Below, piece by piece: positions 26,062-47,212 of a stretch of DNA of 47,212 nt. The notes beneath the pieces are model-generated. The model saw nothing but the letters and a program-made list of their open reading frames with translations, searched no databases and had not been told where the DNA came from. The DNA is taken from positions 1-47,212 of the IMG/VR virus record IMGVR_UViG_3300009172_000010; one strand, given 5' to 3'. The position numbers and the translations under genes were made by a program. Source of the stretch: a virus. The first letter of the stretch is position 1. The number at the start of each line of letters is the position of its first letter.

Positions 26062-29000
26062 ATGAGCTACAAGCAACAAACTGGTGGATTGAACATTGAT
26101 CTCGAAGAGGCCCTAGATTCTGGGGGCGCCTCTGGAGATTATACCTCTGTAATAAATACAAACGACGCGCTTCGCGATCCACGTTTCTTATTGGATTTAC
26201 GCGAGCACTATGATGAGACTGGCGGGCGCGGAATTTCCGACGAGCAGCTCATTGAAAAATTCTATCGCGACAAAGTCTGGGCTGACTTCAACACCTTCAG
26301 CGCGGTATCTGATGCTGCATCAGCCTACGGCATGGGTGAAGACGCGCGCAAGCGCGCGAAGCGTATCGAAACAGTCTACCGTCAACTACCTATGCCCTGG
26401 CAGGAGGGTGGTCGAGGCATGGCGTCGGCAACCGGAGATGTCGCCGGAGCGGTCATCATGGACCCGGTCAATCTCATACCCGGCTTCGCTGCCGGGAAGG
26501 CGGCGTTGACAGCAGGTCGGGCTGCAATGATTGCTGGCAAAAGCGCCCCTATCTTGCGCGGCGTGGGTAAAGGTGCTGCCGTTGGTGCTGGTTCCGAGGC
26601 GCTAATCTCTGGCGGCCAAGCCGCTGTCCACGACACGGCCCTCCAAGCCCGCGACGTGCAGCTTGGCCTGCAAGATGAAATAGACCTCGGACGAACCGCA
26701 CTGGCCACTACAGTTGGCACTGTAGCTGGCGGCGGTATTGGTGGCCTTATCGGTGCAGGCGCTGGTGCTATAGGCGCAAAGCGAGGCGTTTCACAGGTAG
26801 AAAATGCAATACGCCTTGGCCTGACGCCTGAACAAATTGACAATATGACCCCCGCCGATTGGGCGGAGTTTACTAAAGCAACCCAAGACACCGCTGCCTT
26901 ACTTCCCGACGAGCAAGACACCGCTGGCCTAATTCCCGACGAGACTGTCGAGGCACCTCCCGAAGTTGTTCCCGATGCCCCGCCAGACAATCGCACTGTC
27001 TTAGAGCAGCAATTCGACCTGATGGGCGACGAGCTTGACCGGAAACTTGGGTTAGAGCGCCAAGCAGCAGCAGCTTTAAAGGCTGATGGGGGAACAGCGG
27101 AGCAGCTTGAAGAAGCAAGCGACAACCTGCGCCGTTACAACGTCTTTAAAAATCTTAGCAAACGGCTCCGCGCCAGTGAGAAGGAGATAGACGTACTCCT
27201 TCAGTCATCAGATTTGAAGAAACAGAAGCTGGGGCAGCAGCGCCAAGCACTTCTTGACGATGCAATCACCGATCTTCTGGCCGCGACGAGGAAAGACGAC
27301 GGCACTATCGACGTATCCGTACTAAACCGGAAGGTCGATGAGGCAGTAGGCACTTCGACAGAAGCTCCCGCACCCACGACAGAAGCCACGACAGAAGCTG
27401 CGCCGGGGAATGTCCCCGAAGCAGAAGCGCCTGCGTCTGCGCCTGAAGCTCCGACTGCCGAGGTAGTTGATGTAAATTATTCCACTCCTACGGTGGCGAG
27501 TTCCACTGAATCCGCACTCGCTCTTGTGGGAAAATCAACTCCAGACATCCAGCGTTACATCGACGAAGGAAAAGTTCAGCTCGGTAGGTCAGGTAAGTTT
27601 ACAAACAAAAGTTTTAAGCAGTTAAAGACTGCTCTCGATTCAGAAGAACCAGCCGCAGCCCCCCAGGCCGATGCGCCTGCATCCACCCGAACGTGGGAAG
27701 ATGTCGAGAAGGACGTCGAGAACGGCGTGATTAACCTGGACGAAGCAGGAACGCAGCTTGAAGCGATGGGCATAGACCCAGCGGATTTGGGCGGCGAAAT
27801 GATGACGGCCCGCGAATACTTCGAGGCGATCAGGGCCGCAGAAATTGAGAGCGATGCCACCCCCGTATTTTCTCCAATAGCGCTAAAGCAGCGACAACAA
27901 GCCCTGATAAAAGGCACCGATTGGCGCAACATTACCGGCACAGGTGCGAAGGGAAAAATAACTAAAAAGGACATCACCAACGCTTCGGTAGACCCGGCGT
28001 ACACGAAGTCCGTGATGGACGACCTAGACACCATCTTACCTGAAGCGTCTGTAATCGGTGATGAACTGACGCGGTCGGAGATGCGTAATCTTGTCCGCGC
28101 GCTGGCTAATGACCCCGAGTTTTCTTCAGACGCCGACGACGTCCTCGCGATGTTTGATTATCATCATGCTCGCTCTCTCGACGAGGTTCTCTCCGATGTA
28201 AAATTCGGTCGATTAACCAAAGAAGATGCGGCCTTAGAAATAAAACAATCCGGTCGGCAACCGAAAAATTCTGAAGGAAAGTCTGTCTCAAAAAAAGAAT
28301 GGGAGGCACGACTCAATAGGCAAAAACTAGACAGCATATCAAACGAAATCGTCCAGTGGACGCAAAGCGAAATTAAATTGATGCGGGACTTGTCCCGAAA
28401 AATAATGGAGGACGGCGCTACATCCAAGGTAGATGCCGACAGCCAAGCCCAATTGCAGGTCTTGCAGCGCAAACTCAAAGGCAAGACAGCGGTAAGCTCC
28501 GGCGATCTTAGCTCTAGCGCGAAGCGAGTCGCTGAGACAAAGAACATTGAAGGGGCAGGGCGCGACCCTAACACAGGGAAAATACAAGGCATCCTCCGCG
28601 CAGGGATACCGACCAGCGAAGGTCGAACGATAAACACTTCCGGTTTGGATCAGGGAGAAGAGAAATTCATAAGCACCGCTAGTTTCGGAGCGCAGGAGGC
28701 ATTGCTCAGGGCGAAGCAGAACGGTGTAATTACAGAATTTTCTCCAGCGCAATCAGTCCGTCAGGTAATGACGATGTCGGGGAAGAAAGACTTCCCGGCA
28801 GGCAGTGCGCTATTTGCTGACCCACGTACAAACAGGATTTATGACAGCAGAGAGACAGCACTTACCGCTCGGGGAGAGCTAACATCGAAGCCTTCTCCAG
28901 TGTCGACTTCAGCCCCCGGCGCACCCTCTGAACTCTTGGCGTTAATCCGGGCTGCAATTGCGAGCAACGATGGCGCAGCTTTAAAGAGGCTTATCAAAAG

Positions 29001-32000
29001 ACAGAAGCAACCAGATCAAAATATCACTCCTGATACCCTAACAGACCCCCTTCCTAATACCCTAACAGCCCCCCGCGCGACGGAAGACACACCTCTCGTA
29101 TATGGCGACCGTGTCTTGGTCGTGCAGAGAGTAGGCAACGAGGCTGACATCCGCCTCGCTGGCCCATCACAGCGGGTAGACGGGAAGGGCGTACAGAATC
29201 TAATCGGCGCTAACCAAAAGCCAGAAAACTGGAGTGTTCGCTACGCATTGGCCAATGAGGCCGAGGGCGTTCGGAACGCGGCAGACAGGCGTGAACTCTG
29301 GAATAGCGCGAACACGGTGGAGCAGCCATCTGGCACAGAAGATGCACCAGGAATGCGTAGGTTCGTAGGCGATGCGACTGGTATCGGCTCACCTATGCCC
29401 GCGCATGAGTTCGACGAGCTTAGTCTTAGCAATTTAAAGACCAAAGGTCTCCTCCTAAAAGGCGAGCCCGTCGATGTCCAAACATTCTTGGATAACCTCA
29501 TCTCGGAAGTAGAATTTATCAACCCGGATGGGCGAAGACTGGGACTCAAATCTGGACAGGATTTACGGCGACAGATTGTTAGTCTTGAGAAATTACCCTA
29601 CGGGAAGCAGCGGTCTAATCACCGACAGATTGCTGAATGGCTATCTGGACTACACGCCATTGAGCGAGATATTTCGCCGGGTGGCGTGGTAAGAAATACG
29701 GTAGATCGTGCGGAATCAATTCGTCAGGTGGAGGCTATATTCACGCGGTTCTCGCCGGATGAAGTAGCCATTGCTGGTCGAATAATCTCCAGACTTGGCG
29801 GTGATCCGTCAGTTGGCCCTGTTCTTAGAGAGGCCCCTAACAGCCAGTACAGCGCCTATTCAGCCGGTCCTGATGACAACTTCATTCGTCTGTCTTCCAC
29901 GTTAAATGGTTCTACAGAACGGGTATCCTCCCCTGCAACAGAAAACCTCCTGCATGAGCTAGGCCACTGGTCCTATCGTAATATACTTACGCCAGAGGAC
30001 AGGTCGGAGTTTTGGCGAACAGCCGAGAATAGTATGTACCGAGGAGGTGAGGATGACGCTGGGCTCGTTATGCCAGAATCTCCGCCTCACATAAATAATC
30101 AAGTCAATCCTCAAGAATATTTCGCAAATCAGTTCGCGCACTGGGCGATGAAAAATCGCACCGATGGTGTCTTTGCGACCGAAACTTACTGGCGAAAGAT
30201 CAATCGGTATGTTGAGCAAATTTTTAACTGGTTCGTTAAGCGCCAACCCGTCGACAGCGACTTAGTCCCTCTCTTCTCAAAAATCCTTCCAGAAGAAGAT
30301 CGCCAGGTTTATCGTCTGGGAGTAGACGATCCGGTGGGGGATTTCCAGACGGCTATCGTAAAGCATAGCCTCAACATTCGCCTCGCAAGGGATAGCATTA
30401 ATAGCGCGATAAGAGAAGGTAACGATGACGCTATCATCAATGCCTTTTCGCAGGCTCAAAGCGCTCTAGCAGCGGCAGCGCCAGGGCGTGTAATTCCCGG
30501 CCAAGCCACAAATGCTGGCGCAACTTTCAGCGCGCTCCGCCCTCTCGAAAAAATGATCCGAGACCGCTTCGGCGACATCAACCAGGTCATGTCGGGTAAG
30601 GTGGATGGTCCTGTCGAGGCCAACACTGCCGCGCCAGAATTTGGAACTAGCATCTTGGGCGATGCCCAAGAACAGGCCAGCGTGCTGCAAGAATTGTGGT
30701 TAGAGGGCCACGCTGGCGGCTTCACACCGCTTGTCCGTCCGGTCGACCCCGGCGAGGAGTCCAAATTTGCGGGCAACACCTCAATTGAGGCCCTCTTTAA
30801 TATGATGGATCGTACTCTTGAGGCCGCCTTTGCAAGCGAGGGTAAAAAATTAGCAGGCGTTCCCGCCTCGATACGCTCGACGGAGACAGCCACACCGTCG
30901 GCGACAGGTAAGGCCGCTGTCGAGCGGGTAAAGAAAGGGACTAAAGCAACCGAACGCTCGGCTATACAAACCGCCAAGACACCGCGCAAAAAACGCAAAT
31001 CAAGCGGGAAGACATCTGCGGCGGAGCCGAGTGATGCTGCCGAGATTCGGTCAGCAAGTACCAAAGAGCTGGTTGACCTTTACCGCCGGGAGGCTGGCAC
31101 CGACAGGGGCCAACAGATTGCGGAGGTTATTCTGGCCCGGAGGAAAGCGGAGCCGCTGCCTGCAAAATATATAAGTCGCCCGCAGGAGATAAAATCTGCG
31201 ACAAAGTCTGATCTCTCTACAATGCTGGCCAGCGCCCTCGACGCTGCCGACAGCAAAAAGATAGACCAAATTCTTTTCGAGGTTCAACGTCGTAGCCACA
31301 ACAAAGGGAACAAAGGCATCCCTGGGTTTAAGCCTGTCTACCGCGAGGTAGGTGCGGCAATAGAGCGCGAGTTGGCCGACCATGCGGGCGTCCAGACAAA
31401 CGACGGAATACCAGCCAACGCGCGTGGCCAGGTCCGGTCGATGTTGTCGTACCTGACGCACCGCGATCCTGAAGTTCAGACGACGATGCGGACAATGACC
31501 TACAGGATGGTCAACCTACTCGGCAAGTCTCAACGCGGTGGCATCGAAGACACCAACTTTATGACAATGGGTGACATCGCCCGGATGTCTGGAGAAGACC
31601 TATCCGGTCTGGAGACAGGGGCCTTTATGGACTTCAGGGGACCGGAGTTTGGTAGTCTGCGGAAAGACCTGAGACGTCTGTCGGTCGGTCTTAACAAAGG
31701 TAAATCGACCCCCTTCGATGTAGTCCACGAGGTTAGCCATATGCTGACCCGATCTGGTCTCCTGCCAGATCGCGAGATCGATGCTATCCGTGAATCTTGG
31801 CGGTCTCTTGATATCAATGACCCCCTCAAAAAACAGACCATCGACACGTACACGAGCAAGTACGCCAACCGTGAATACACAGACATTGAAATGGACAACG
31901 TCCTCGCAGACGAATGGTTCGCGGAGAGCTTCACACGATATCTATCCGAGCGCGTAGCGAAGGGCGACATAACGCAAGCCGCTCTGACGGGTAACATGAA

Positions 32001-35000
32001 CTCGGTGGCGCTGCGAGGCACTGTCAGCCGCGCCATCGACAGGCTTGTCGAGTATGTAAGCTATGTCTTAAACGGACTGATCGGCAGGACGGACATCAAG
32101 CAGACCTTTAGGCGGATTACATTTTCCGCAGACATGCTTGAAGATGTGGGCCGCGCACCAATGTCAGCGCGTCGGCTCGCCGTCGGGCCAGAGAATGCGG
32201 CGGCTTACTCAGCAGACCGATACATGGCATCGCCACGAAATAAGAAGGCGCACATATCTAGGTTCGTCGGCAACGGTCTTGGATACGACGTGGCGAGCGA
32301 CACGCCCGTCGTTTGGTATCACGCAACGCCGGTCGCTCATAAATTTGATGCGAACACGAATCCAGATGAAGTTTTTAATGGGTCGGTGAATGGAAACTAC
32401 GGACCTGGCCAGTACCTCTCTCTTGATCCTGGCTCGACCCGAGTTTACGGGGATGCCCCGACAGCATCGGCAATCCTGCGTGCCATAGATGAAGCAGACA
32501 TCGGGGTTGAACTCAAGACAGAGCTATCCATTGACGCGCTTTACGTTTCTTCGATACGGAAAGAAATGGCGGCTCTGCGTCGCGAATACTCGATGCTCCG
32601 AGAGAACCCGTCGGGAGACGAGGTGTCGGATTTCCTGAACGGAGAACAACTCGATAGGCTGAAGGCAGAGATCGAGTCAATGGCAGAGATTGAGGTCGGG
32701 ATTAACACGAGATTTGCACGGCATGACATTGCAAGTAATCCTGGGGTGATACCCTTTTATATTAGGGCTCTCAAACCAGCAGATTTCAGTGTCAAAAAAT
32801 TCTACGAACCGGACGACCAGTTTGTTCGGTTGCTGCAAACCAATCTTCGAGACGCCGGAATAGTAAATGAAAAAGAAGTTTCTCGATTTGCGAACAGAAC
32901 GTCGGAGGGCGTAGATGGCAGGCAATTATACCAAGCCTACGTCAGTGCTTTCCGTGGTGATGGGGGCACATCAGATGGAGCGGCCAAAGAACTAGCCACT
33001 ATCTCTCTCGTAGACAACGGCTACGACAGTCTGAAAACGACGCACTACAATAGTGTCGACAGTGTAGATGTCGGTGAGGCTCTGCCTGACGGTCGGCCCT
33101 ATGGGGCAGACATTCGAGGACACGAGACAGTTGTTCTTTTCGATGAGACCCAGTCGAAAAATATCGACGCTGAGTTTTTCGACCAGTCCGACCCGAGGAT
33201 GCACTATCGCGAAGAAGGTCGCCGCAACGACTTCAGTAGTCTCAACGCCACGATTGCCGATGCTGTTATGGACGGCGCAAGCCCCAAAGATATGAACCTC
33301 GACGCGCTTGTCGAAGGTCTTGAGCAGGTCGGTGCATCCAGGCTAGAGGCAGATGCGCTTCGCTCGACAGCAGCGGGCCGACCATTAAGCGCGCCGGAGG
33401 AGCAGGCTATTCGCAAACTGTCTCCGCTCCGTCATCTTCAGGAGCAGTCTCAACGGATGGAAGGGATGGGCCTGAGATGGCTAGGAAGCTGGTATAAAGA
33501 CCACTTCCCAGATATCAACCAGCGGTTTGCCAAGACATACATGCCAATCCGTAATAAATTACGGAAGTTGCCGGATTCTGATGGCAGGGTCCGCGCTTGG
33601 GCTCGGGCAAGCAGCGGCGGTGTCGGACAAAAGCAACCAAAATCATATACGCGCATCGTCAAGGCATTGCGGCGTGGTGAAGGGTCGGCGCAGCACAAGG
33701 CGCTGTCTCCTCAAGAGCGTGAGGTTTTTACTATGGTCCGGTCGGCCATGGAAACCGAACGCGGCAACATGGTTAAGGCCGGGATGAGCGTCGGCTACCG
33801 GGAGAACTATGTTCCACAGGTCTGGAACAAAGCCTTTATCCAAAAAAATCGTGTCGAGTTTCTTCAGGATATGTCTGATTATTTCAAGCGTGAGAAGACG
33901 CGGCAAGTTCCGCCCGTGCTTGCAGATGATGCCGAAGCTATTGCCTTTGCCGAACGGATGTATCTCACACTAGCCGACGATAGTGCCGACGGAGTTCTGT
34001 CTCCCATTCATGGGTCAACGCGTAACCCCAAATTTGAGCACGCCGATTTTTCCCGCATGATCGAACTCGATCAGGACAAGTTCTCGCTCGATGCGATGGA
34101 AAAATATCTGGAAAGCGACCTCGAATTTCTTCTGACGAAGTACCTTGAGGGATCAACCCGACGCCTTAGTCACACCGAGAAACTCGGTCTGAACAGCCAC
34201 GGCGTATATGACTACATGAAGGTAATACACGGAGGCCAAGACGGCATCGCGAGTCTTTTGAGCACCAACCGCGAGTTTAGGAAAGACGTCCGGTTCGTGG
34301 GGCCTGATGGATATCCTGAATCTGCTGTGGTTATTGATACAACAAAAATGCCTTTTGTTGGGAAGGAGGCCGAGTCACAGGTTTTTTCGCGTAATCTTAT
34401 CGAGACGCACGCGACCCAAGGTAGTGGGGCAGCGAGAAAAATGCTCGACGAAGTCGCCCCAACCAGCGTGGATGGGGCTATTCCACCGACGTACCAACGT
34501 CGAGCTGACGCCATTGTTGCAGCTCTCGACGACTTCAAGGGTCAAGCAAGTCCTAAAATTATTGATGACCAATATAACTTCATCGACAACGCGATGCGCG
34601 TTGCTCGACGCCAAGCATTAACATCCGGCGGCGGGCAAGCCGCGCATAAAGCAAGTCGAGCCTTGAAGAATTTCAACTCGGTGACGCTACTGAGCTACAC
34701 CGCGCTGACGTCAATACCCGATCTGGCTCTGCCGATTGTTAGGAGCGGTAGCTTCAAATCGTGGGCCAAAGGATTGTCTCGCTGGGCATCCGACCCCGAA
34801 TACAGACAGATGCTTGGGAACATAGGCGTCGCGATGGAGAACATTATCCACGACCGAATGACATATATGTACGGCGCAGCCGACGGCAAGACAACACACG
34901 CATTCTTCAATGCGACCATGCTTACGCCGTGGACGGATATGAACCGCCAGATCGCTGGCGCGACAGCCATCGAGGCTTTCGCGACAATGCAGCGGAAGGC

Positions 35001-35916
35001 AATCAAATCACATGACCCAGAGAAATCTCTCGTTGACCAGTCGCGCGCGTACAAGACAGCGTATCGGTTTCTCAAGCGATACGGCCTAGAAGAGTTTTCG
35101 CCGCACGGGAAGAGGATTGGTGAGACATTGTCTGACGCGCGTCTGCTCGATGGTGAAATGGCAAGTGATGAGCTTCGTCGAGGCATCATAAAGTTTGCAG
35201 ACGAGAGCATTTTTACTCCAAATCCAAACGACATTCCGCTTTGGGCGCAGACACCCTTTGGCAGCCTTGCTTTCCAACTGAAATCTTTCCCGCTGATGAT
35301 GACACGGCTGACCGGCTATACGCTGTCTGAGTTTAAGAAGGGCAATGTGGCACCGCTTGCCTACCTCACGACAATCGGTCCAGCGCTAGGCGCTGGGTCG
35401 CTCGCGATCAAAGACGTTGTTCAAATGCGCGGAGGCGACGATGGAACCGATGCGGAAGTCCGCAAGCGCAACATATTGAAATCGCTTGGCTACGACGAGA
35501 AGCAGCACGGGAACGTGGACGACTTCCTGGGTTGGTATGTGACAGGGGCTGGCGCGATAGGGTGGGGCGGCCTTGCTTCCGCCCTCGCTTCTGAAGCCTA
35601 CGACGCGTCGGGTGGCGGGAACTACAGCAAGAACCGCCTTGCCTCATGGATATTTGGTCCGACGTTTGGTCTGATTAACCCCGTTGTGGATGTATTATCA
35701 GGAGTGAAAAATGCTGTGGTCGGGGGTAATGCCAGCAACGCTAAACAGCGAACAGGGGTGCGCGCAGTAGCAGGTCGACTCCCTGTTGTTGGAGGGAACA
35801 GAGCCGTCAGAGAAGGATTAGTTGATTCAATTGCCGGTGAGACACCAGAAGAATCAAGCGGTTGGGGTGGTTGGGGTGGTAGTGGGAACAGCGGATGGGG
35901 CGGCGGATGGAAATGA
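26062..35916 (+). CDS. Giant ejection/polyvalent protein with two HEXXH sites and an ART-like domain (3284 aa)
   Basis: Largest gene of the window, last in the ejection block (T7 gp16 position). Residues about 130-240 are Gly/Ala-rich hydrophobic segments (MDPVNLIPGFAAGKAALTAG; VGTVAGGGIGGLIGAGAGAI), possible membrane-penetrating parts. Low-complexity linkers follow (for instance Ala/Pro/Glu-rich 430-475, Lys-rich near 1630). Zincin 1: HELGH at 1298-1302, third ligand candidate E1352 in NPQEYFANQF. Zincin 2: HEVSH at 1889-1893 with DEWFAESF (E1951/E1955). ADP-ribosyltransferase-like: VVWYHAT (H2087), GPGQY (Y2118), GHETVVLFDE (E2355). Helical C-terminal 900 residues end in a Gly/Trp tail (GWGGWGGSGNSGWGGGWK). 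It fits the polyvalent proteins that phages inject; activities are untested. No transglycosylase or RNA polymerase motif was seen. Confidence 0.85.
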   Translation: MSYKQQTGGLNIDLEEALDSGGASGDYTSVINTNDALRDPRFLLDLREHYDETGGRGISDEQLIEKFYRDKVWADFNTFSAVSDAASAYGMGEDARKRAKRIETVYRQLPMPWQEGGRGMASATGDVAGAVIMDPVNLIPGFAAGKAALTAGRAAMIAGKSAPILRGVGKGAAVGAGSEALISGGQAAVHDTALQARDVQLGLQDEIDLGRTALATTVGTVAGGGIGGLIGAGAGAIGAKRGVSQVENAIRLGLTPEQIDNMTPADWAEFTKATQDTAALLPDEQDTAGLIPDETVEAPPEVVPDAPPDNRTVLEQQFDLMGDELDRKLGLERQAAAALKADGGTAEQLEEASDNLRRYNVFKNLSKRLRASEKEIDVLLQSSDLKKQKLGQQRQALLDDAITDLLAATRKDDGTIDVSVLNRKVDEAVGTSTEAPAPTTEATTEAAPGNVPEAEAPASAPEAPTAEVVDVNYSTPTVASSTESALALVGKSTPDIQRYIDEGKVQLGRSGKFTNKSFKQLKTALDSEEPAAAPQADAPASTRTWEDVEKDVENGVINLDEAGTQLEAMGIDPADLGGEMMTAREYFEAIRAAEIESDATPVFSPIALKQRQQALIKGTDWRNITGTGAKGKITKKDITNASVDPAYTKSVMDDLDTILPEASVIGDELTRSEMRNLVRALANDPEFSSDADDVLAMFDYHHARSLDEVLSDVKFGRLTKEDAALEIKQSGRQPKNSEGKSVSKKEWEARLNRQKLDSISNEIVQWTQSEIKLMRDLSRKIMEDGATSKVDADSQAQLQVLQRKLKGKTAVSSGDLSSSAKRVAETKNIEGAGRDPNTGKIQGILRAGIPTSEGRTINTSGLDQGEEKFISTASFGAQEALLRAKQNGVITEFSPAQSVRQVMTMSGKKDFPAGSALFADPRTNRIYDSRETALTARGELTSKPSPVSTSAPGAPSELLALIRAAIASNDGAALKRLIKRQKQPDQNITPDTLTDPLPNTLTAPRATEDTPLVYGDRVLVVQRVGNEADIRLAGPSQRVDGKGVQNLIGANQKPENWSVRYALANEAEGVRNAADRRELWNSANTVEQPSGTEDAPGMRRFVGDATGIGSPMPAHEFDELSLSNLKTKGLLLKGEPVDVQTFLDNLISEVEFINPDGRRLGLKSGQDLRRQIVSLEKLPYGKQRSNHRQIAEWLSGLHAIERDISPGGVVRNTVDRAESIRQVEAIFTRFSPDEVAIAGRIISRLGGDPSVGPVLREAPNSQYSAYSAGPDDNFIRLSSTLNGSTERVSSPATENLLHELGHWSYRNILTPEDRSEFWRTAENSMYRGGEDDAGLVMPESPPHINNQVNPQEYFANQFAHWAMKNRTDGVFATETYWRKINRYVEQIFNWFVKRQPVDSDLVPLFSKILPEEDRQVYRLGVDDPVGDFQTAIVKHSLNIRLARDSINSAIREGNDDAIINAFSQAQSALAAAAPGRVIPGQATNAGATFSALRPLEKMIRDRFGDINQVMSGKVDGPVEANTAAPEFGTSILGDAQEQASVLQELWLEGHAGGFTPLVRPVDPGEESKFAGNTSIEALFNMMDRTLEAAFASEGKKLAGVPASIRSTETATPSATGKAAVERVKKGTKATERSAIQTAKTPRKKRKSSGKTSAAEPSDAAEIRSASTKELVDLYRREAGTDRGQQIAEVILARRKAEPLPAKYISRPQEIKSATKSDLSTMLASALDAADSKKIDQILFEVQRRSHNKGNKGIPGFKPVYREVGAAIERELADHAGVQTNDGIPANARGQVRSMLSYLTHRDPEVQTTMRTMTYRMVNLLGKSQRGGIEDTNFMTMGDIARMSGEDLSGLETGAFMDFRGPEFGSLRKDLRRLSVGLNKGKSTPFDVVHEVSHMLTRSGLLPDREIDAIRESWRSLDINDPLKKQTIDTYTSKYANREYTDIEMDNVLADEWFAESFTRYLSERVAKGDITQAALTGNMNSVALRGTVSRAIDRLVEYVSYVLNGLIGRTDIKQTFRRITFSADMLEDVGRAPMSARRLAVGPENAAAYSADRYMASPRNKKAHISRFVGNGLGYDVASDTPVVWYHATPVAHKFDANTNPDEVFNGSVNGNYGPGQYLSLDPGSTRVYGDAPTASAILRAIDEADIGVELKTELSIDALYVSSIRKEMAALRREYSMLRENPSGDEVSDFLNGEQLDRLKAEIESMAEIEVGINTRFARHDIASNPGVIPFYIRALKPADFSVKKFYEPDDQFVRLLQTNLRDAGIVNEKEVSRFANRTSEGVDGRQLYQAYVSAFRGDGGTSDGAAKELATISLVDNGYDSLKTTHYNSVDSVDVGEALPDGRPYGADIRGHETVVLFDETQSKNIDAEFFDQSDPRMHYREEGRRNDFSSLNATIADAVMDGASPKDMNLDALVEGLEQVGASRLEADALRSTAAGRPLSAPEEQAIRKLSPLRHLQEQSQRMEGMGLRWLGSWYKDHFPDINQRFAKTYMPIRNKLRKLPDSDGRVRAWARASSGGVGQKQPKSYTRIVKALRRGEGSAQHKALSPQEREVFTMVRSAMETERGNMVKAGMSVGYRENYVPQVWNKAFIQKNRVEFLQDMSDYFKREKTRQVPPVLADDAEAIAFAERMYLTLADDSADGVLSPIHGSTRNPKFEHADFSRMIELDQDKFSLDAMEKYLESDLEFLLTKYLEGSTRRLSHTEKLGLNSHGVYDYMKVIHGGQDGIASLLSTNREFRKDVRFVGPDGYPESAVVIDTTKMPFVGKEAESQVFSRNLIETHATQGSGAARKMLDEVAPTSVDGAIPPTYQRRADAIVAALDDFKGQASPKIIDDQYNFIDNAMRVARRQALTSGGGQAAHKASRALKNFNSVTLLSYTALTSIPDLALPIVRSGSFKSWAKGLSRWASDPEYRQMLGNIGVAMENIIHDRMTYMYGAADGKTTHAFFNATMLTPWTDMNRQIAGATAIEAFATMQRKAIKSHDPEKSLVDQSRAYKTAYRFLKRYGLEEFSPHGKRIGETLSDARLLDGEMASDELRRGIIKFADESIFTPNPNDIPLWAQTPFGSLAFQLKSFPLMMTRLTGYTLSEFKKGNVAPLAYLTTIGPALGAGSLAIKDVVQMRGGDDGTDAEVRKRNILKSLGYDEKQHGNVDDFLGWYVTGAGAIGWGGLASALASEAYDASGGGNYSKNRLASWIFGPTFGLINPVVDVLSGVKNAVVGGNASNAKQRTGVRAVAGRLPVVGGNRAVREGLVDSIAGETPEESSGWGGWGGSGNSGWGGGWK

Positions 35917-37650: not shown

Positions 37651-38462
37651 AATCTTTCCCTCGGTCTCCAAGGAGCGAAGTGCTCGCACACATTGACAGC
37701 TTCGTCGCCGGTCTTGGTGCAATCCCAAAGCCCCTTTTCGTTGGCTTGCGCGTGTGCACATCCAGTACATTTTTTGTATTCTGTCTGCTCCCAGCATACC
37801 GTTCTATGAAAGCAGCCCTTACATCTCCAATCAGTTTGGCTGGCACTTATCTTCTCGACATCTCCGAGGAGTACCGTCGTCACTTTCTGCTTTAAATACG
37901 AAATTTCCAGCTCATCGGCAGCGACAATTTCAGCGTGATAGGCAGAGTTGTTTTTATTTATAGCAATGAATAAAGTTTCACCCATCCCCGACATCGCCAT
38001 CATCATCTGCACCTGCGCGTAGTAGCTGGGGTGTGATATTTTAACGCCTGACTTCAAGAACTTTTTGAAGCTGGCATCGTTCATGGATTTGATTTCAAGG
38101 ATTCGGACAACGCCATCATCAAGCTCAACGTGTCCATCTGTATGGCACACCAGATGACCGCCTAGTTCCTCGTATGCATACTGCTTACCCGTCAGTCCGT
38201 CGGTCTCCCAGACGCGAACGTCGGCACGCTTCTTTAGATCGCGCACGACGAAGTCCTCCAGGAGGTGTCCGAAATTAAATATCCGTTGGAGCTGCGGGCC
38301 AGGGCTGTCCTGCGGATAACCTCTCAGCGAGAAAGCGAGGTTGGCAAGACAGTCTTGACCCACGATGGATGCGCCAAGGTATTCCCTAGACTTTTGTTTA
38401 GGGGCATCTCTATACCCCTCGTCGATTGCCTCGACGACATCAGGCGCGTTCATAATTTTCAT
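37647..38462 (-). CDS. PD-(D/E)XK exonuclease with Cas4/AddB-like cysteines (271 aa)
   Basis: RecB/Cas4-like nuclease fold: E69 in GHLLED, D109 in HTDGH, E123-x-K125 in ILEIKS, and the Q/Y motif YYAQVQM. A cysteine at 38 (VGQDCLANLAF) plus C214-x2-C217-x5-C223 gives the four-Cys arrangement of Cas4/AddB Fe-S cluster enzymes. A second set (C232, C235, C248, C259) may bind zinc. The start overlaps the SSB-like gene (TGATG). With the SSB-like and RecA-like neighbours it likely resects DNA ends for annealing-type recombination. Strand direction and cluster content are untested. Confidence 0.9.
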   Translation of the reverse strand: MKIMNAPDVVEAIDEGYRDAPKQKSREYLGASIVGQDCLANLAFSLRGYPQDSPGPQLQRIFNFGHLLEDFVVRDLKKRADVRVWETDGLTGKQYAYEELGGHLVCHTDGHVELDDGVVRILEIKSMNDASFKKFLKSGVKISHPSYYAQVQMMMAMSGMGETLFIAINKNNSAYHAEIVAADELEISYLKQKVTTVLLGDVEKISASQTDWRCKGCFHRTVCWEQTEYKKCTGCAHAQANEKGLWDCTKTGDEAVNVCEHFAPWRPRERL

Positions 38463-38926
38463 CAAAAAGGTATTTCGTCATCTATGTCAGAGCCGACTTT
38501 GGCGACAGCTTTAGTCGGCGGCATGAAGCTCTTGATTTCGCTATACTGCTTTGTCTCTCCGTTTCGGTTTTGATACGGCTTCCCCATCCCAATGAAGACG
38601 CGGCACGACAACCCGTTCAAAGAGGACATTTCCCCCGGCCTATCTGGTGAGGGATGACCGCTTGCTATCAGGAATTGTTTGAGCTTTTCCTTGCCGATCT
38701 TGATCGCGGCCTCGGAAAATCCGTGCATCCGAAAATCATTTCGGATGTCACCTGCCTTGTCTACGTCTGTGAAAGTAACGCGCACAACTTTCTTATTTCC
38801 ATCTAGTGTCTCAATCGTTGCGCCATTTGTTTCGACGACGTACTCACCAGGCTCAAGCCTAGACACCCGATCTTCGACCTTGACGTCACTCAGATCGAGA
38901 CCGTTGAAACCACTCCATTCCGACAT
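38462..38926 (-). CDS. Single-strand DNA-binding-like protein with acidic SSB tip (154 aa)
   Basis: AGGAGAA ribosome-binding site in the end of the upstream gene. The body has OB-fold-like beta strands (PGEYVVETNGATIETLDGNK, VVRVTFTDVD), as in the DUF669 group. The last eight residues are DIDDEIPF, nearly the canonical bacterial SSB C-terminal tip that docks partners. Placed between the nuclease and the RecA-like ATPase. It probably coats single strands and recruits host or phage repair enzymes. The tip is clear; the fold is inferred. Confidence 0.85.
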   Translation of the reverse strand: MSEWSGFNGLDLSDVKVEDRVSRLEPGEYVVETNGATIETLDGNKKVVRVTFTDVDKAGDIRNDFRMHGFSEAAIKIGKEKLKQFLIASGHPSPDRPGEMSSLNGLSCRVFIGMGKPYQNRNGETKQYSEIKSFMPPTKAVAKVGSDIDDEIPF

Positions 38927-45489: not shown

Positions 45490-45654
45490 TTACTCGCGCC
45501 AGTTGCGCAGCTCGTCGTGAATCATATCCTCGATAGCAACAACGGCTATCTCAATGGACTCGATGGGTATTTCTTTACTCGGCACCATCTTCTCTATCTT
45601 GTCTCTCAGCCTAGAGAGACCGCGAATAGCTTTCATTTGCATTGGCTCGGTCAT
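45490..45654 (-). CDS. Small hypothetical protein (54 aa)
   Basis: ATG at 45654 (MTEPMQMKAIRGLSRLRDKI), helical, ends AIEDMIHDELRNWRE. Weak GCAGAGAA ribosome-binding site. Tail-to-tail with the membrane protein gene (2 bases apart). Its upstream region is the palindrome array at 45740-45811, so it may be controlled by it. Confidence 0.6.
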   Translation of the reverse strand: MTEPMQMKAIRGLSRLRDKIEKMVPSKEIPIESIEIAVVAIEDMIHDELRNWRE

Positions 45655-45739
45655 TTTTTCTCTGCCCCGGCGTATGCGTCATGCCCGCTCGGTTCATTGA
45701 ATATAACTCTTCCGAAAGTAGTAGCCGCTATACTATTTT

Positions 45740-45811
45740 CGACCACTTGGTGGTCGGAATCCGACCTCCAGAGGTCGGAACGCGACCTCTTAGTGGTCGG
45801 AACGCGACCTC
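45740..45811. repeat. Phased palindrome array (operator, iteron or centromere candidate)
   Basis: Seven half-sites of CGACC(A/T)C alternate in orientation: CGACCAC 45740, GTGGTCG 45750, CGACCTC 45762, GAGGTCG 45771, CGACCTC 45783, GTGGTCG 45793, CGACCTC 45805. Units repeat every 21-22 bases, two DNA turns. The first two pairs are perfect palindromes and the third has one mismatch. It lies between two leftward genes, just after a winged-helix-like gene. Confidence 0.85.
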
Positions 45812-45814
45812 TCT

Positions 45815-46498
45815 TTAGCTATCGAGGTCGTCAATCTCAGAGTCGTAATCGCCTCGTTCCATGGCCTCGATGAGGGTGTACAGGAATTTTTCCGTCGTGT
45901 GTGTAGTCAAATAATCCGAAGCAGCTTCTCCAAGCGCTGCTTGTTTTCGTGTCTCATCGAACATCACAACATACCGACAGAACTCTATGACATCGTCGTT
46001 AAGCATTCCCGCTATTATTCGTTCTTCGACTTCTGATACGCATTCTTCCGTGAGCGAATACCCGTCATTTACACGCTTGAGCAGCCCCAATTCGACTCCT
46101 GTTTTGAGTACCGATTTGACCGCTGAACGTCCGGCCATACCGTCTACCCCTTCCTCGATTTGCGAGAGACGCACGGGTGCCATTGTGAGCATCGCTTGCG
46201 CGATGATTTCCTTCGAGACATACGGCGCGGCCTTGTTCGATTCCCGCCACTCCGCCATGGTCGGGCCGACTGGCGGATCAATCGGATTTTTCTCGAGCAA
46301 ATTGCGTGTGCGCATCATTCGCATCGAGCATTTCTGCCAGAGGTAAGTTGCTCGCTGCCGGGTTGAGTAAAAAGACGTATGCGCATTCACCGAAAATGGC
46401 TTGTTGTATGCCGCATAGATTTGACGAGCGCGGCTGATCTTTCTTTTCGCACGCACAATATGATCGCGCATTGGGGATGTCTTCGTCGGTTTTTTCAT
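45815..46498 (-). CDS. Winged-helix-like DNA-binding protein candidate (227 aa)
   Basis: GGAG ribosome-binding site 8 bases before the ATG at 46498. Basic N-terminus (MRDHIVRAKRKISRARQIYA). Residues about 100-160 (APVRLSQIEEGVDGMAGRSA then VKSVLKTGVELGLLKRVNDG) look like a winged helix. The C-terminal 65 residues are acidic and helical. It ends 4 bases from the palindrome array, making it the leading candidate to bind it. Could be a repressor, a partition/centromere protein or a replication initiator; sequence alone does not decide. Confidence 0.75.
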   Translation of the reverse strand: MKKPTKTSPMRDHIVRAKRKISRARQIYAAYNKPFSVNAHTSFYSTRQRATYLWQKCSMRMMRTRNLLEKNPIDPPVGPTMAEWRESNKAAPYVSKEIIAQAMLTMAPVRLSQIEEGVDGMAGRSAVKSVLKTGVELGLLKRVNDGYSLTEECVSEVEERIIAGMLNDDVIEFCRYVVMFDETRKQAALGEAASDYLTTHTTEKFLYTLIEAMERGDYDSEIDDLDS

Positions 46499-46529: not shown

Positions 46530-46552
46530 TTGTGCGCTATTTGTGCGTTTTT
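46530..46552 (+). promoter_or_regulatory. Integrase arm-type repeats, left of the tRNA
   Basis: TTGTGCG at 46530-46536 and TTGTGCGTTTTT at 46541-46552, 11 bases apart; a weaker TTGTGCTTATTT lies at 46586-46597. They are the same in sequence and orientation as the three repeats on the other side of the tRNA. Direct repeats like these flank phage attP cores as integrase arm sites. Confidence 0.65.
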
Positions 46553-46591
46553 ACGGTTACATAATCGGCAAGGTGTGTCAAAAAGTTGTGC

Positions 46592-47212
46592 TTATTTAAT
46601 CTTTATTACCCCCTTACTTACCCCTTGGGTGTCCCGCACACCATTGGTAATGGGTACGGTTTTGTTTATACTGAGAAATTGAGGGACCATAATTAGCTCC
46701 ATGGAATCCTCTGAAAGCCGCCGTAGCTCAGGGGTAGAGCACGTCATTGGTAATGCCGGGGTCAGTGGTTCAATTCCACTCGGCGGCACCATTTCAGGGT
46801 GTTGTGCGTTTTTTGTGCGTTTTTGTGCGTTTTCTGGAGGGGTCAGTGTGCTTATTGCATCGACCAGGTTGTGATGTGCGAGATACGCATAGCGCATCAC
46901 CATCGCCAAACTGGTGTGACCCAGTAGGTCAGCCACACCACGCAAGCTCGTGCCGTTTTGGACAAGCAGCGACGCGAATGTTGACCGGCAATCATACGTC
47001 CTGAAATCCTCAATCTTTGCGCGGCTTACAGCACGTCGCATGTGGCTTGCCCAGTTACTCGCGCCCCACTTCCGGCCCTCGGTATTCGGGAATAGCAATC
47101 CGCTGTCACTTGTTTCGGCTACCATGGCCCGCCTAAATACCATCTCGGATATCGCACCCGACAATGGCACAGCGCGCACACGTTTCTTTCTCCCGCGACC
47201 TTTGTGCGAAAA
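46592..47212 (-). CDS. int: Tyrosine integrase, C-terminal part (N-terminus off right edge)
   Basis: The frame is open to the window edge (FSHKGRGRKKRVRAVPLSGA), covering the catalytic-Lys hairpin. The C-terminal core: YDCRSTFASLLVQNGTS (box II Arg, with Tyr where HxxR normally has His), LLGHTSLAMVMRY (His and the Tyr nucleophile region). From about 46791 downward the frame reads antisense through the tRNA (VPPSGIEPLTPALPMTC) and 125 bases beyond it, so the real functional end may be earlier. Catalyses integration and excision at tRNA-Thr. The unusual Tyr for His lowers certainty about activity. Confidence 0.9.
   Translation of the reverse strand, partial: FSHKGRGRKKRVRAVPLSGAISEMVFRRAMVAETSDSGLLFPNTEGRKWGASNWASHMRRAVSRAKIEDFRTYDCRSTFASLLVQNGTSLRGVADLLGHTSLAMVMRYAYLAHHNLVDAISTLTPPENAQKRTKNAQHPEMVPPSGIEPLTPALPMTCSTPELRRLSEDSMELIMVPQFLSINKTVPITNGVRDTQGVSKGVIKIK
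46642..46652 (+). repeat. Second copy of the tRNA anticodon-loop sequence (possible att core relic)
   Basis: CATTGGTAATG at 46642-46652 is identical to tRNA bases 46745-46755 (anticodon loop). The surrounding CCATTGGTAATGG is a perfect inverted repeat centred on GGT. GCAC precedes both copies at the same place. It may be a relic of an att core or tRNA fragment. Confidence 0.6.
46717..46791 (+). tRNA. tRNA-Thr (anticodon GGT), complete, probable att site
   Basis: Complete cloverleaf: acceptor GCCGCCG/CGGCGGC, D stem GCTC/GAGC, anticodon stem CGTCA/TGCCG with loop TTGGTAA (anticodon GGT at 46749-46751, codon ACC), T stem AGTGG/CCACT with TTCAATT loop, encoded CCA. One T-C mismatch (46744/46756) disturbs the anticodon stem. 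The integrase gene runs antisense through it, and repeats flank it. It fits an attP carrying a whole tRNA copy. Confidence 0.93.
46802..46834 (+). promoter_or_regulatory. Integrase arm-type repeats, right of the tRNA
   Basis: Three direct TTGTGCGTTTT copies start at 46802, 46813 and 46823 (spacing 11 and 10), directly after the tRNA. They match the left arm repeats, so one protein probably binds both sides. They lie inside the integrase reading frame. Confidence 0.7.

Follow-up and report, generated by a model that had tools for sequence, protein, structure and literature searches.

The locus described here lies at the right end of the window, by which we mean the whole 47 kb record, from a marine bacterial virus, that was analysed (47,212 nucleotides). 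The window and the isolate CRP-810, a Roseobacter phage, are collinear across 26 ORFs, including that of the primase-polymerase, and the window thus represents a temperate phage of the CRP-810 type; primase-polymerase, Sak4 and exonuclease genes are common to both. Reading leftward from the right end, the record carries a tyrosine integrase gene, a tRNA-Thr gene, a probable attP core, the gene orf227, a repeat array and a 54-aa ORF. Only the C-terminal part of the integrase is present (46592..47212, minus strand), the gene being truncated where the record stops; its frame runs through the tRNA, and its true end is uncertain. The phage-carried tRNA-Thr (GGT; 46717..46791, plus strand) is complete. 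The probable attP core, CATTGGTAATG, is located at 46642..46652, with a second copy at 46745-46755 inside the tRNA, and within an attP-like layout at 46530-46836 the core is flanked by TTGTGCGTTTT (TTGTGCG) repeats resembling integrase arm sites. For CRP-810, integration at tRNA-Thr has been shown by PCR (PMC11288001). In an integrated prophage, orf227 (227 aa; 45815..46498, minus strand) would be the outermost gene on the attP side. The 54-aa ORF (45490..45654, minus strand) follows the array, on the same strand, and is not common to relatives. Elsewhere in the window, a 154-aa ORF with no family match (38462-38926) ends in DIDDEIPF, a C-terminal tip like that of single-strand-binding proteins (SSBs), and positions 26062-35916 form a single ORF of 3284 codons; over 856 residues its product shares 54% identity with a region that is annotated in CRP-810 as separate large ORFs.

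The array (45740..45811, minus strand in the sense of the gene) was delimited by half-site positions, Tandem Repeats Finder and shuffles. It consists of seven half-sites, alternately CGACC and GGTCG, starting at 45740, 45752, 45762, 45773, 45783, 45795 and 45805; successive starts are 12, 10, 11, 10, 12 and 10 bp apart, giving a period of 21-22 bp. Tandem Repeats Finder reports a single array (45740-45812; period 22, 3.4 copies, score 97), and the longest exact chain with the array spacing comprises seven half-sites in the 47 kb window as compared to two in 200 Markov-1 shuffles. Read in the direction of the gene, the array divides naturally into GGTCG-N5-CGACC units: three are perfect palindromes (45795-45809, 45773-45787 and 45752-45766, minus strand, with outer half-sites at 45805 and 45740), and a fourth, degenerate one, GGTCGAAAATAGTAT, comes after them and was recognised by direct reading of the sequence (45730..45744, minus strand). 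This last unit occupies the position of the conserved last unit of relatives, GGTCGnnCAAAGWCC, and of the single unit of a distant clade, GGTCAAAAATAGACC. An outlying in-phase CGACC half-site (45826..45830, minus strand) lies within the coding end of orf227, 21 bp from the next half-site. Scanning the whole record revealed no exact GGTCG-N5-CGACC site outside the array, and the ORFs that cover the array are spurious overlapping ones. The first-pass annotation, which had described seven alternating half-sites forming three palindromes plus a half with a 21-22 bp period, unique in the window and with no gene inside, was therefore accurate on these points; the DNA-binding protein gene that it placed 4 bases away is indeed adjacent, with an actual gap of 3 bases (the orf227 stop codon starts at 45815). 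The window flank beyond the array is not A+T-rich (50% A+T), and GC skew shows no turning point at the array. The array was also considered as an attP or integrase arm site and rejected, as the attachment core and arms lie at 46530-46836.

The protein encoded by orf227 probably binds DNA and belongs to a family not yet described. Searches against Pfam, PHROGs and NCBIfam returned nothing above cut-off, and comparison with solved structures gave no useful match. Overall confidence in the AlphaFold models is poor (mean pLDDT 55 and 68), with one confident part, a central winged helix (approximately residues 95-150; pLDDT ~70-81 in the window protein and 86-94 in a relative), in agreement with the winged-helix-like character noted in the first-pass annotation. 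Structure searches returned generic winged helices, with those of the MarR family leading in the PDB and none below E 0.001 (best ~2e-3); in a viral structure library several replication-initiation proteins were among the matches, none of them significant. As in the dimeric MarR-family regulators, a winged helix sits in an all-helical protein for which palindromic sites are expected; unlike them, orf227 has no Pfam MarR match, and long downstream arrays are atypical of that family. Neither an HTH_36 nor a Phage_rep_O domain was matched above the Pfam cut-off in orf227, and PF13730 (HTH_36) is absent from the window record. Profile comparison with HTH_36 proteins gave a weak match restricted to the recognition helix (probability 3.7%, E 0.012). 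Relatives of orf227 have in common an acidic C-terminal stretch (YDDDIF / LDDIIF; alignment columns 205-235) that lies just before the array-encoded tail and recalls the acidic tip found on single-strand-binding proteins.

Searching viral contigs by profile yielded 17 other distinct records with relatives of orf227 (27-37% identity; L011 is the same contig as L002), most of them short metagenomic fragments in which the gene content of the phage is only partly visible. A clear equivalent array is found at the 3' end of the gene in 13 of the 17, or 14 records including the window, so that the conservation beside the gene proposed earlier as a check was borne out. In L004 the array at this position is degenerate only, and in the distant records L018-L020 no more than a single unit remains (GGTCAAAAATAGACC). 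Across the 14 clear arrays the forward-to-reverse spacing is mostly 10 and the reverse-to-forward spacing mostly 11-12; arrays of relatives often overlap the stop codon, and chains at the gene end comprise 4-7 half-sites versus 2-3 elsewhere on the same contigs (one mismatch allowed). The letters of the half-sites vary between relatives while the spacing is kept: L003 and L005, for example, use GGCCG-N5-CGTCC. In group A records, the 60 bp beyond the array are 62-77% A+T, as compared to ~48% overall. Blastn of the array against isolated phages, tblastn of the window, L009 and L019 proteins against phages and of the L012 protein against plasmids, and two scans of bacterial and archaeal genomes gave no match.

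The same comparison bears on whether the array acts as RNA, forming hairpins or terminators between convergent operons. The transcript across the array is predicted to fold well (z = -3.9), and in group A the array closes the operon of the integrase strand at the point where late genes converge. However, most stems in L003 and L005 carry a central mismatch despite exact 21-bp spacing, and an RNA role is weakened because these mismatches are conserved. Moreover, it is the half-sites that are conserved and not the loops, and in the window no T-run follows the array on the gene strand, the one terminator-like match scored being weak and on the plus strand. We therefore consider an RNA function highly improbable.

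The surroundings of the gene differ between groups. In group A a tyrosine integrase gene overlaps the start of the orf227 relative, and in group B a small serine recombinase gene lies upstream, with an AlpA-like gene and a tyrosine integrase gene downstream. The serine recombinase gene is immediately upstream in L003, L005, L008, L009 and L010, and a tyrosine integrase gene is also found downstream in L003, L008, L009 and L010. In L018-L020 no recombinase gene lies upstream, and a gene for a CI-type repressor follows downstream. The gene downstream of the array is thus variable (a 51-aa ORF, AlpA-like plus integrase, a 54-aa ORF, or CI). Since flanking genes change while gene and array stay linked, we take the gene plus its array to be the unit.

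Two explanations draw on these neighbourhoods. The first is that orf227, bound to the array, shapes the DNA for a neighbouring integrase or resolvase as a recombination accessory complex. A recombinase gene is immediately upstream, or across attP in the case of the window, in 14 of 18 records; L006 ends too near the gene to tell, and only the distant L018-L020 are without one. However, the array accompanies tyrosine integrases and serine recombinases alike, no crossover site is seen at it, and the attP of the window lies, together with its repeat arms, at a distance of 0.8-0.9 kb; these points make this role very unlikely. The second explanation is that the array is a transcriptional operator, cooperatively bound by a MarR-like orf227 and controlling the downstream gene or antisense or late transcription into the integrase region. 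This would agree with the MarR-family winged helices that lead the structure matches, with the location of the array between orf227 and a downstream gene on the same strand, and with the position of the gene in relatives, which is either immediately ahead of CI or on the strand of integrase and CI. On the other hand, the downstream gene differs among groups that all retain the linkage, no sigma-70-like promoter was scored at the array (although promoters of the host may differ), and the array follows the gene and is not at its promoter. The same sites also occur inside initiator genes, as detailed below, and on balance we regard an operator as rather unlikely.

To look for such arrays independently of the gene, we searched 2.9 million viral contigs for a pair of exact units. 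The pattern was found on 17 contigs, of which 4 are orf227 loci, the others representing 10 independent arrays. Six of the 10 (L022, L024, L026, L032, L033 and L037) lie inside genes with a Pfam HTH_36 match above cut-off, in one case together with Phg_2220_C. A further array, in L029, lies inside a gene similar to those of Streptomyces and Gordonia phages that carry the annotation 'replication initiation protein', and that of L028 adjoins a TrfA-like gene; L021 and L034 have a winged-helix look, as judged by eye only. A stricter form of the pattern gave no match, and the pattern GGTCGCNCAAAGTCC gave 79 contigs; among the pieces examined, the gene was present only in those already known. With the same half-sites in the wrong spacing, N8 instead of N5, we found a single contig. 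Shuffled letters in the same geometry (GTGCG-N5-CGCAC), initially intended as a negative control, gave three contigs (L117:3072-3617, L118:5762-6607 and L119:2361-2771), all of them with the match inside a small gene that reads like a winged-helix initiator; this set was dropped as a negative control, being positive for the geometry, and the spacing control was added. Palindromes of the 5-N5-5 type at 21-22 bp are thus a mark of initiator iterons, of which the GGTCG version is one common form, and may be a general signature of such iterons in phages. The letters of the array alone are no proof of what binds them.

The occurrence of the same sites at the same spacing inside phage replication-initiator genes specifically supports reading the array as iterons. 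Like orf227, the HTH_36 (PF13730) initiators, including those with HTH_36 plus Phg_2220_C, have GGTCG-N5-CGACC units spaced at 21-22 bp and linked in cis to a winged-helix gene; they differ in that their arrays are located mid-gene, after the part coding for the winged helix, and in that orf227 lacks a PF13730 match and is not significantly related to them in profile comparison. In phage lambda, likewise, the iterons of ori-lambda lie in the gene of their own initiator, O, beside an A+T-rich tract, and are tandem palindromic sites bound cooperatively (PMC7466680 and general knowledge), as the orf227 sites may be. In contrast to lambda, orf227 has its array at the 3' end and is neighboured by an integrase, not by a helicase loader gene (none accompanies it), and the window has no A+T-rich tract; the winged helix is N-terminal in O and central in orf227, and no sequence relation between the two was detected. 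The RepA_N initiator of PLEs, the phage satellites of Vibrio cholerae, also binds a few semi-palindromic iterons, which, however, are ~30 bp in size and lie in a separate noncoding region (PMC7145576, PMC8263062); here too no sequence relation to orf227 was detected.

Three lines of evidence, namely conservation at the gene end, autonomy of the module and the finding of identical sites in arrays within initiator genes, make the case for an initiator module. We propose that orf227 binds the array in cis through its winged helix, with a dimer probably occupying each GGTCG-N5-CGACC palindrome, so that dimers recur every two helical turns on the same face of the DNA. Packing cooperatively, they would open the DNA or load the phage helicase, and the module would be an initiator-type origin laid out like that of lambda O. 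We put the chances at about even that orf227 and its array form such a self-contained, lambda-O-like module, acting as an accessory or conditional origin or in replication control rather than as the only origin. That preference follows from the close relative CRP-810, which has the same replication genes but neither orf227 nor an array of this kind. Also counting against a main origin, a group B relative, L008, encodes a separate HTH_36 protein (1018-1833) with its own 21-bp repeats mid-gene (array 1472-1541) that differ in sequence, one phage fragment thus carrying two initiator-like modules. In favour of an initiator role, the records of the window, L004 and L018 encode an AAA_25 ATPase, in the window as a Prim-Pol fusion, but no HTH_36 protein. 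The module is probably an accessory replicon or a replication-control module. Of the functions suggested in the first-pass annotation (replication, partition or immunity), replication gains from the arrays inside initiator genes. An immunity role is conceivable. A partition site, or centromere, would fit phased repeats adjoining a DNA-binding protein gene; it is disfavoured because no ParA- or ParM-like NTPase gene travels with the module among the neighbours inspected in related loci, and the phages encode integrases, so that we give it next to no weight.

Another explanation is that the prophage uses the protein, the array or both to capture the initiator or iterons of competing phages with GGTCG iterons and so blocks their replication. 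The half-site is common to the iterons of unrelated phage initiators, the module is optional, being absent from CRP-810, and adjoins attP or the integrase gene, and the second HTH_36 protein and repeats of L008 are compatible with such competition. However, no same-host phage with matching iterons was identified, and if the array were just a decoy, no conserved protein would be needed; we consider interference decidedly unlikely. We attach a similarly slim chance to a broader scenario, in which temperate marine phages carry orf227 and its array as a new mobile module for replication control, the protein having acquired the HTH_36 iteron code, GGTCG-N5-CGACC at 21-22 bp, so that the prophage blocks, or is driven by, the replication of another phage.

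Should the initiator module that we favour prove correct, the phage initiators would gain a protein family with no match in the libraries searched, and 5-N5-5 palindromes every 21-22 bp in or beside a winged-helix gene would provide a simple signature of phage origins in metagenomes. One iteron code used across initiators with no clear sequence relation would, in turn, make competition between phage origins directly testable.
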